Shown piece by piece: positions 57,550 to 60,616 of a DNA stretch of 64,000 nt; positions within the stretch are counted from its first letter, which is position 1, and the number at the start of each line of letters is the position of its first letter. The DNA lies in assembly GCA_026003195.1 (NCBI GenBank), contig BPGU01000001.1, forward strand, positions 791,398-855,397. The letters are read 5' to 3'. The translations under genes were made by a program, and so were the position numbers. Under the pieces are notes generated by a model that had not been told where the DNA came from, did no database searches, and saw nothing but the letters and a program-made list of their open reading frames with translations. The stretch is from Armatimonadota bacterium (GTDB taxonomy: Bacteria > Armatimonadota > HRBIN16).

Positions 57550-59136
57550 ATGCATACTTCGCAGTTCTCCTTTGCCACTCTACGGGAAGCGCCTGCAGAT
57601 GCGTTCTATGTGCATGAGCGTCTGCTGCGTCGCGCGGGGTTTGTGCGCAAGGTGGAAGCGGGAACATACGTTTTGCTGCCGCCAGCGGCACGAGCGTTCC
57701 GCAAGATGAGGCAATTGCTGGAAAGGGAATGTGAAGATGCAGGTTTTCATCCGCTCGTCGTACCGCTGGTAGAGCCGGATCAGGCGGTGCTCGAGTCCGC
57801 TCGCCCTCAGGTGCGTTCGTGGCGCGCTCTGCCGTTGAGATGGTACGTGTGGAACCAGATTCACCGTGAAGATGTGGAGCCGCGCGGAGGTCTGCTGGAA
57901 ACGCGGGAGTTCTTCCGCCTGCAGTTATGGGGTTTCGATGACGATGCACCGTCGGCGATGGGGAACACGATACGGATCAAAGATACGCTTACTCGCATCT
58001 GTCGGCGGATGGGGTTGGCGGTATTAGCCGGGGAGTGCGACGGCTGGAGCATACTGGTGGTAGCAGAAGGCGGCGAGGATGTGCTCCTGCAGTGTTCTTC
58101 GTGTGGAGCCTCTGCTGCGCCAGAGTGGTGCCCTCTGCCTGCTTCGGAGGAGGCAGCGATGTCATACGATGCCGTACCACCTGCCGAAATCGTGAGCACG
58201 CCCGACCTGCGCACGGTGGAGGAGGTAGCGCGTTTTCTCCATGTGCCCCCTTCCAGGCTGGTGAAAACGCTGTTGCTGGAAGTGGGCGGGAAAGCGATGG
58301 CTGTGCTGGTGCGCGGTGACCACGAGCTGAGTTTGCCCAAAGTGCGGCGTGCGTTGAGTGCAGGCGAAGTGCGCATGATGTCGGCAGAGCGGGTGGAGGC
58401 AGTGAGCCGTGCGCCCGTAGGCTTCGCGGGTCCGGTAGGGCTGGAGAGTGTGCCTTTGATGGCAGACTGGGCGGTGCGCCAGATGCAGGATTTCGTGGTG
58501 GGGGCGAATCTGGCGGATGCACACCGCGTACATGTTTGCTGGGGGCGCGATTTCGAGGAGCCAGTATGGGCAGACCTGCGCATGGCATCTCCGGGCGATC
58601 GTTGCGCCCACTGCGGTGGCGAGCTGGTTTTGCAGCAAGGTATCCTGGTGGGCAGGGTGCGGATGTGGCACGGCGAGCATGGATTGGTGTATGATGATGC
58701 TCAGGGGATGCAGCGACCAGTGCAGGTAACGGTGGGGGAAACGAACCTGATGCGTACACTGGCGGCGCTAGTAGAGGCAAGTCACGACAGCGATGGTATC
58801 GTATGGCATCCGTGCGTTGCTCCCTTTGAGGCGCTGGTTCTGCTGTTGAACCCTTCGGAAGAGGCGCACCGACAGGTCGCGGAGAAGGTATACCAGTCTC
58901 TGCAGGAGCGCGGCATCGATGTGCTCCTGGATGACCGCGACGAGCGGGCAGGTGCGAAGTTCAAAGACGCTGACCTGATCGGCATCCCCGTTCAGGTGGT
59001 GGTGGGGCGGTCGGCGTCTGAAGGACGTGTGGAAGTGCGCCAGCGCCGCGACAGGCAACCTCATCCGGTCGCTGTAGAGGATGTGCCGATTGTGGTGGAA
59101 GAGCTGTTATACCGTGAGAAGGAGATAACCGCTTGA
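57550..59136 (+). CDS. Prolyl-tRNA synthetase-like protein with degenerate catalytic core
   Basis: The 528-residue protein keeps the bacterial ProRS plan: class II core, YbaK/INS editing-like insertion (about 205-370, LRTVEEVARFLHVPPSRLVKTLLLEVGGKAMAVLVRGDHELS) and an anticodon-binding end (about 435-525, GIVWHPCVAPFEALVLLL). But the GPTHEE segment between motif 1 and motif 2 is missing. Motif 2 reads HREDVEPRGGLLETREFFRLQLWGF instead of FRDE...REFIMKDAYSF, and the CYGIG part of motif 3 is VGET. Amino acid activation is doubtful. Start 57550 follows AAGGAG. Confidence 0.75.
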   Translation: MHTSQFSFATLREAPADAFYVHERLLRRAGFVRKVEAGTYVLLPPAARAFRKMRQLLERECEDAGFHPLVVPLVEPDQAVLESARPQVRSWRALPLRWYVWNQIHREDVEPRGGLLETREFFRLQLWGFDDDAPSAMGNTIRIKDTLTRICRRMGLAVLAGECDGWSILVVAEGGEDVLLQCSSCGASAAPEWCPLPASEEAAMSYDAVPPAEIVSTPDLRTVEEVARFLHVPPSRLVKTLLLEVGGKAMAVLVRGDHELSLPKVRRALSAGEVRMMSAERVEAVSRAPVGFAGPVGLESVPLMADWAVRQMQDFVVGANLADAHRVHVCWGRDFEEPVWADLRMASPGDRCAHCGGELVLQQGILVGRVRMWHGEHGLVYDDAQGMQRPVQVTVGETNLMRTLAALVEASHDSDGIVWHPCVAPFEALVLLLNPSEEAHRQVAEKVYQSLQERGIDVLLDDRDERAGAKFKDADLIGIPVQVVVGRSASEGRVEVRQRRDRQPHPVAVEDVPIVVEELLYREKEITA

Positions 59137-59636
59137 AGGCAGTACGTTTGCTGGTATTACTTGGGCTGTTGATCGTGTTGGGCATACAGTTTCGTGCCTG
59201 CCTGCGCCCTGCGATGACAGGCAAGCCGGCAGCGGAGCTGTTCGCCTCCCGCTGGTGGAACTCCGAGCCGTTGACCATGCAGAACTTGCGCGACAAGCTC
59301 GTGTTGTTGGATTTCTGGTCCGTGTGGTGAGGTGGATGTATGGCGGGGCTGCCGGAGGTAGCCCGGTTACACGAGCGGTACGCCTCACGAGGGCTGGTGG
59401 TGATTGGCGTGCACGACGCTTCGGGCAAGCTGGATGAGGTAGAACAGGCAATTCGCGAGAAAAACATCACGTATCCGGTGATGCGCGACACGGACGCTCG
59501 TGAAACCTTCTCCGGTTATCGCATTGTGGGTATTCCGCACCTGATTCTGGTGGGAAAGGACGGTAAAATCCTGGCGGACGGCAAGTCGCTGAAGGAGATA
59601 GAGAGGCTGATTCAGCAGGAACTGGATGCACCATGA
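59133..59636 (+). CDS. TlpA-like thioredoxin with in-frame TGA at the first active-site Cys (selenoprotein candidate)
   Basis: The frame starts at TTG 59133 (AAGGAG upstream, overlapping the previous stop) with a membrane anchor (VRLLVLLGLLIVLGIQF). It reads LVLLDFWSVW, TGA at 59328-59330, then GGCMAGLPEVARLHERYASRGLVVIGVHDASG to the stop at 59636. TlpA/ResA proteins have WCxxC here, so TGA replaces only the first Cys, giving W-U-G-G-C. The product would be 167 residues. The rest is intact (cis-Pro GIPHLILV). A nonsense mutation or read error is the alternative; in that case two fragments remain. Confidence 0.65.
59331..59371 (+). promoter_or_regulatory. Candidate bacterial SECIS hairpin
   Basis: Stem GGGCT (59346-59350) / AGCCC (59360-59364), loop GCCGGAGGT starting with G. 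After one G-G mismatch the stem continues with CGGT against GGTT-type wobble pairs. The loop begins 20 bases after the TGA, inside the 16-37 base window used for bacterial SECIS elements. High GC makes chance hairpins likely. Confidence 0.4.
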
Positions 59637-60616
59637 GCAGAGAGCTGGCGGTATTGACGGTGACCCTCAACGCGGCGGTAGACAAGACCTATCGCGTGGA
59701 GGGTTTTTGTCTGGACAGGGTGTTCCGCGTGGAAGCGGGCAGGGTGGTTGCCGGTGGGAAGGGCATTAATGTGGCGCGCGTGCTGCACACGTTAGGCGTG
59801 CCGGTAGTGGCGACCGGCTTCCTGGGTGGTCACAACGGCGCGTTTATTCTGGACAGCCTGAAGCAGGAGGGCATCCCCGGCGATTTCGTGTGGACGCAGG
59901 GGGAGAGCCGTGTCTGTCTGGCGGTGATTGACCCTGTCGGTGGTACGCAAACCGAGCTGAACGAAATCGGACCCGACATCCATCCTGAAGAGGTATCTGC
60001 GCTGGAGGCGAAGCTGGCGCAGTTGCTGCCCCGATTTGCTTACGTGACCCTCTCCGGCAGCGCGCCGCCCGGAGTTCCTCCTGACTTTCACGCGCGCGTG
60101 ATCCGTTTGGGGCGTGAGGCAGGAATCAAAGTGGTGCTGGACAGCAGTGGCGAGCTTTTAAGGCACGGGGTGGAGGCGGTTCCCTGGATGGTAAAGCCCA
60201 ACCGCGCAGAGTTATCTGCTCTCTTTGGGCGCGAACCGGCAGACGTAGATGAAGCGGTGGAGATGGCGCATCGGTTGCTCGCGAAAGGAATAGAGGCAGT
60301 GGTGGTCACGCTGGGCAAGCAGGGGGCGGTGTGGGTCAGCGTGGAAGGCGAGTGGTTTGCACAGCCGCCGGAGGTGGAGTTCGTGAGCGCGGTCGGCTCT
60401 GGCGACTCGATGCTGGCGGCGATGTTGTACGCCATCATACAGGGCATGTCTCCCCCCGACGTGCTTCGCTGGGGAGTAGCGGCTGGCGCGGCGAACGCAG
60501 CGGTATTCGGCGCGGGCTTCTGCACGCGAGAGCAGATAGAATCGCTTGTGCCGAGGGTGGCGGTTCGGGAGAGGAAGGCTTTCTCCTCCCTCTTGCCGAA
60601 ACCGCAGCATGTATGA
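59633..60616 (+). CDS. PfkB-family sugar phosphate kinase (1-phosphofructokinase/tagatose-6-P kinase-like)
   Basis: The 327-residue protein matches FruK/LacC: VTLNAAVDKTYRVEGF, the substrate loop GRVVAGGKGINVARVL, ELNEIGPDI, KPNRAEL and the ATP/anion-hole motif SAVGSGDSMLAAMLYA with catalytic Asp. It phosphorylates a sugar monophosphate in the cytoplasm. ATGA overlap with the thioredoxin gene and four-base overlap with the MFS gene show one operon. Confidence 0.9.
   Translation: MSRELAVLTVTLNAAVDKTYRVEGFCLDRVFRVEAGRVVAGGKGINVARVLHTLGVPVVATGFLGGHNGAFILDSLKQEGIPGDFVWTQGESRVCLAVIDPVGGTQTELNEIGPDIHPEEVSALEAKLAQLLPRFAYVTLSGSAPPGVPPDFHARVIRLGREAGIKVVLDSSGELLRHGVEAVPWMVKPNRAELSALFGREPADVDEAVEMAHRLLAKGIEAVVVTLGKQGAVWVSVEGEWFAQPPEVEFVSAVGSGDSMLAAMLYAIIQGMSPPDVLRWGVAAGAANAAVFGAGFCTREQIESLVPRVAVRERKAFSSLLPKPQHV

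Follow-up and report, generated by a model that had tools for sequence, protein, structure and literature searches.

Does an in-frame TGA at the redox cysteine codon of a TlpA-like gene encode selenocysteine (Sec), or does it mark a short or broken gene? This question is raised by a locus in the window analyzed here, a stretch of 64,000 nucleotides from a genome of the phylum Armatimonadota, in which a first-pass annotation had pointed to a possible TlpA-like selenoprotein with the motif WUGGC, a frame intact on both sides, and a TGA only at the first Cys of WCxxC. We confirmed that the frame at 59133-59636 (forward strand, as are all features described here), encoding 167 amino acids, contains a single internal stop, the TGA at 59328-59330. 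It corresponds to residue 66 in the context LVLLDFWSVW-U-GGCMAGLPEV and takes the place of the first Cys in a TlpA/ResA-type WCxxC motif, thereby yielding WUGGC, with Cys69 as the presumed resolving residue.

The gene is packed between two others. Its TTG start overlaps the stop codon of the upstream gene (TTGA), a proS at 57550-59136 coding for a divergent class-II proline--tRNA ligase (ProRS), and its TGA stop at 59634-59636 overlaps the ATG (ATGA) of a gene for a PfkB-family carbohydrate kinase at 59633-60616. The order tlpA-pfkB-MFS is common to all six orthologue loci described below, and proS lies directly upstream in five of them. Regarding the proS product itself, it scored 353 of 558 and 279 of 307 against the two ProRS models of NCBI; Pfam matched its editing and anticodon domains and returned no match to the class-II catalytic core even at an E value of 10, while residues 77-517 could be aligned to solved ProRS chains.

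Profile and structure searches were carried out with Cys placed at the TGA position. Pfam matches above cut-offs were obtained for Thioredoxin_8 (1e-13), AhpC-TSA (3e-13) and Redoxin (2e-10). The nearest NCBIfam models were ResA, StoA, TlpA and DsbE, and the protein scored below the cut-off of every one of them (DsbE, 28 of 123; TlpA, 30 of 230; ResA, 61 of 170, that is, 61.1 bits against the curated cut-off of 170 for NF002854), placing it outside the ResA subfamily. ResA, DipZ and DsbE-like chains were the nearest in the PDB both by sequence and by fold. An AlphaFold model built on an alignment of five sequences displayed an N-terminal helix (residues 2-23) followed by a thioredoxin fold, with a mean pLDDT of 78 and the lowest confidence at the motif loop, residues 65-71. 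The thioredoxin fold, the redox motif, cis-Pro135 within the motif IPH and the sequence matches together place the protein in the TlpA-like (TlpA/ResA/DsbE) superfamily.

The N-terminal helix contains a hydrophobic segment, about residues 6-21 (59148-59195), flanked by positive charges (K2 and R5 before, R21 and R25 after). This likely signal anchor suggests that the protein is probably membrane-anchored. With charges on both sides of the segment and no lipobox in the N-terminal region, an extracytoplasmic location of the catalytic domain is no more than plausible. Cys23 (59199-59201), located directly after the hydrophobic segment and outside any lipobox, is invariant and might possibly be a third redox site or a lipidation site.

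Orthologues were sought in ten genomes of the genus, including that of the window. Six of the ten carry one, with 66-82% identity over the full length. The codon for residue 66 is TGA in all six and a Cys codon (TGC or TGT) in none, so that a TGA aligned with the catalytic Cys of homologues is conserved across species, as an alignment proposed by the first-pass annotation was meant to reveal. On either side of the TGA, changes between species fall mostly at third codon positions; for instance, the window and its orthologue L018 differ at 13, 7 and 39 sites at codon positions 1, 2 and 3, respectively. The stretch that follows the TGA is therefore selected as protein.

The same genome was found to encode the complete machinery for Sec, namely a tRNA-Sec with anticodon TCA, selB (416 bits against a cut-off of 242), and selA and selD (599 and 380 bits, respectively, both above curated cut-offs). 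The first-pass annotation had called for these four genes and held that a lack of selB or tRNA-Sec would refute a selenoprotein; all four are present. Furthermore, the selD gene also contains an in-frame TGA (AGUASKLGP), with a strong hairpin after it, indicating at least one further standard selenoprotein in the genome.

A SECIS-like hairpin lies just 3' of the TGA at 59346-59364 (GGGCUGCC-GGA-GGUAGCCC), with stem strands at 59346-59353 and 59357-59364 and a G starting its apical loop GGA (59354-59356). The stem lies 15 nt and the loop 23 nt beyond the TGA, within a few bases of the approximately 20 bases given in the first-pass annotation. Folding of a 51-nt stretch gave -20.7 kcal/mol (z = -2.57), a value that no sequence among 200 shuffles reached. 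We observed that 18 of the 19 hairpin bases are invariant in the six species, and the sole change, a C-to-T substitution, leaves a G-U pair in place, whereas third positions elsewhere in the gene have diverged widely. Among codons for unchanged residues, five inside the hairpin show no difference among the six species, versus 13 of 66 elsewhere (Fisher P = 0.003, including a sixth, varying codon at the hairpin edge). Judging from this pattern, the hairpin is under selection as RNA beyond the selection on the protein. It hardly varies, and no compensatory changes or covariation were seen among the six species. Rfam SECIS_1 gave no match across the whole genome; this negative result is uninformative because 14 controls, including E. 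coli, likewise gave none. At a permissive threshold, Rfam returned only chance microRNA and snoRNA matches in the region.

We searched 291 Armatimonadota genomes with a nucleotide motif for DFxxxWUxxCxxxxP[DE] bearing TGA and obtained hits in 12, six of which lie outside the genus and belong to two other families. With TAA or TAG in place of TGA, the motif was found in none of the 291 genomes, and a reversed-pattern control gave no match; chance therefore does not account for the TGA. All six loci outside the genus have open thioredoxin-like frames with hairpins after the TGA; four encode WUGFC, one WUGPC and one WUGGC, and their terminal stops are TAG (four), TGA (one) and TAA (one). The WUGGC locus, in G147, is the nearest TGA-bearing distant relative found; a Cys homologue with WCGPC is located at L070 in G040. 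All six genomes with a motif locus outside the genus have selB. Three motif-negative comparison genomes (G099, G100 and G112) had no selB match at E ≤ 1e-60 and three others have selB; hence, the motif implies selB, and the reverse does not hold. As a separate observation, a thioredoxin-like selenoprotein of a UGFC type (HWUGFC), longer and with an N-terminal region that looks helical, is found repeatedly in two other families of Armatimonadota (L073, L074, L076 and L077, near position 1501 in every case) and is distinct from the UGGC type of the window.

Could the TGA instead be a sequencing error, or a nonsense change of TGC or TGT in a decaying pseudogene of a former Cys protein? The assembly that contains the window is a draft of 29 contigs with 4.8% contamination, and the gene is absent from three related genomes, both of which would fit such a reading. 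However, the orthologues refute it, as five other independent assemblies carry TGA at the same codon, with identities of 66-82%, and six loci of other families have it at the matching place. Moreover, the downstream frame stays open with third positions changing the most, and TAA or TAG never occupies the position. We consequently reject error or decay, to which we assign next to no probability. An equally negligible probability is given to a functional short membrane peptide of 65 amino acids ending at the TGA, with the hairpin serving as a regulatory element. The near-invariance of the hairpin would fit this reading, but in all six species the sequence beyond the TGA codes for protein, and it completes the thioredoxin fold, including cis-Pro.

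Decoding of the TGA in another manner, either by stop-codon reassignment or by leaky read-through with insertion of Trp or some other residue, would likewise keep the frame under selection. Yet TGA terminates both the gene itself and the upstream proS, which argues against any general reassignment, and code reassignment was rejected on this ground together with the presence of the Sec machinery. Coincidence of the TGA with the redox Cys, the dedicated tRNA-Sec, SelA, SelB and SelD, and the conserved downstream hairpin also make such decoding highly improbable. The machinery, the conserved TGA and the conserved hairpin instead support the selenoprotein proposed at first, and on this sequence evidence we are nearly certain that the gene encodes a genuine selenoprotein whose TGA would be read as Sec.

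In the mechanism that we propose for this selenoprotein, SelB, bound to the hairpin located a short distance 3' of the UGA, would deliver Sec-tRNA(UCA), allowing the ribosome to read through the UGA and complete the protein of 167 amino acids. The selenolate of Sec66 would attack disulfides (or oxidized thiols or peroxides), and Cys69 would resolve the selenenylsulfide within the thioredoxin fold bearing cis-Pro135. A role as a disulfide reductase is quite likely. The sequences themselves establish the conserved frame, the TGA, the hairpin, the Sec machinery and the fold family, whereas Sec incorporation, catalysis, topology, substrate and electron donor are inferred.

In part of the genus, the gene is missing from its place between proS and pfkB. 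In G003, G007 and G009, selB is present, the selenoprotein gene is absent and pfkB directly follows proS; the stop of proS overlaps or abuts the start of pfkB in G007 and G003. The selenoprotein gene is thus dispensable in the genus, and the idea that its presence tracks selB was discarded, as nine of the ten genomes have selB above the cut-off, three of them without the gene. In G005, the contig ends, which leaves this genome out of the comparison. No Cys version was found at the locus in any genome of the genus, and the three loci without the gene, which were checked, showed a clean absence. In G009, pfkB (at L086:1615) opens with four codons (ATGAGGGTTGTG, MRVV) that match those at the beginning of the selenoprotein gene of the sister genome G001 (ATGAAGGTTGTA, MKVV). 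An in-frame deletion thus apparently fused the start of the selenoprotein gene to pfkB in G009, a scar that argues for loss of the gene. A tree of proS and pfkB sets G009 with G001 (support 1.0), apart from G003 and G007, indicating at least two absence events.

Several UxxC selenoproteins resemble the window protein. Thiol-disulfide isomerase-like UxxC selenoproteins, originally identified in the Sargasso Sea data set (PMC1088965), are catalogued as cd02966 TlpA-like (PMC13188914, table 1) and share with it a TlpA-like thioredoxin fold and a Sec first in UxxC. By their descriptions, they are set apart from the lineage reported here by its N-terminal hydrophobic segment, its UGGC or UGSC motif and its position between proS and pfkB. 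Prx-like thiol:disulfide oxidoreductases (PF00578, UxxC/UxxU) form a broad family defined by domain and motif (PMC13188914, PMC9312934); compared by description, the window protein also matches PF00578 and has UxxC. The Trx-like 1 family (COG0526), with UxxC sequences from marine metagenomes (PMC2398784), is by description of the same thiol-disulfide isomerase/thioredoxin type as the window protein, and UxxC selenoproteins of the redoxin family (PF08534) also appear in the lists of reviews (PMC13188914, PMC9312934, PMC1088965, PMC2398784). The UGC-containing TlpA family (PMC13188914) and the WAxxUGC ResA-like proteins (NF041054) also have Sec in a ResA-like fold, but with one residue between Sec and Cys (UGC) instead of UGGC; the window protein scored 37.6 bits against the NF041054 cut-off of 300. 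Finally, the Cys forms of ResA, DsbE and TlpA have in common with it the fold, the position of the redox motif, the cis-Pro and an N-terminal hydrophobic segment, but carry Cys where it has Sec, and it falls below their subfamily cut-offs.

The first-pass annotation had considered a UxxC TlpA with a membrane anchor uncommon. Its anchor topology remains plausible, whereas the rarity is modest, the UxxC TlpA/Prx-like kind being established. This kind of selenoprotein is already known, and the Armatimonadota lineage within it appears to be undescribed; a search of the open-access literature found no study of Sec or selenoproteins in Armatimonadota.

Our observations document the use of selenoproteins by TlpA-like proteins in this little-studied phylum, in which standard annotation would truncate such genes at the TGA or label them as pseudogenes. 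We also considered, as a tentative and rather doubtful interpretation, that they represent a selenoprotein-only TlpA-like lineage in Armatimonadota in which Sec is not exchangeable for Cys, the TGA being kept or the gene being absent, the latter at least twice. If true, this would suggest a reaction with a genuine requirement for selenium, which may take place outside the cytoplasm. The keep-or-delete pattern within a single genus provides a natural comparison for asking why a thiol-disulfide oxidoreductase would use Sec and not Cys.
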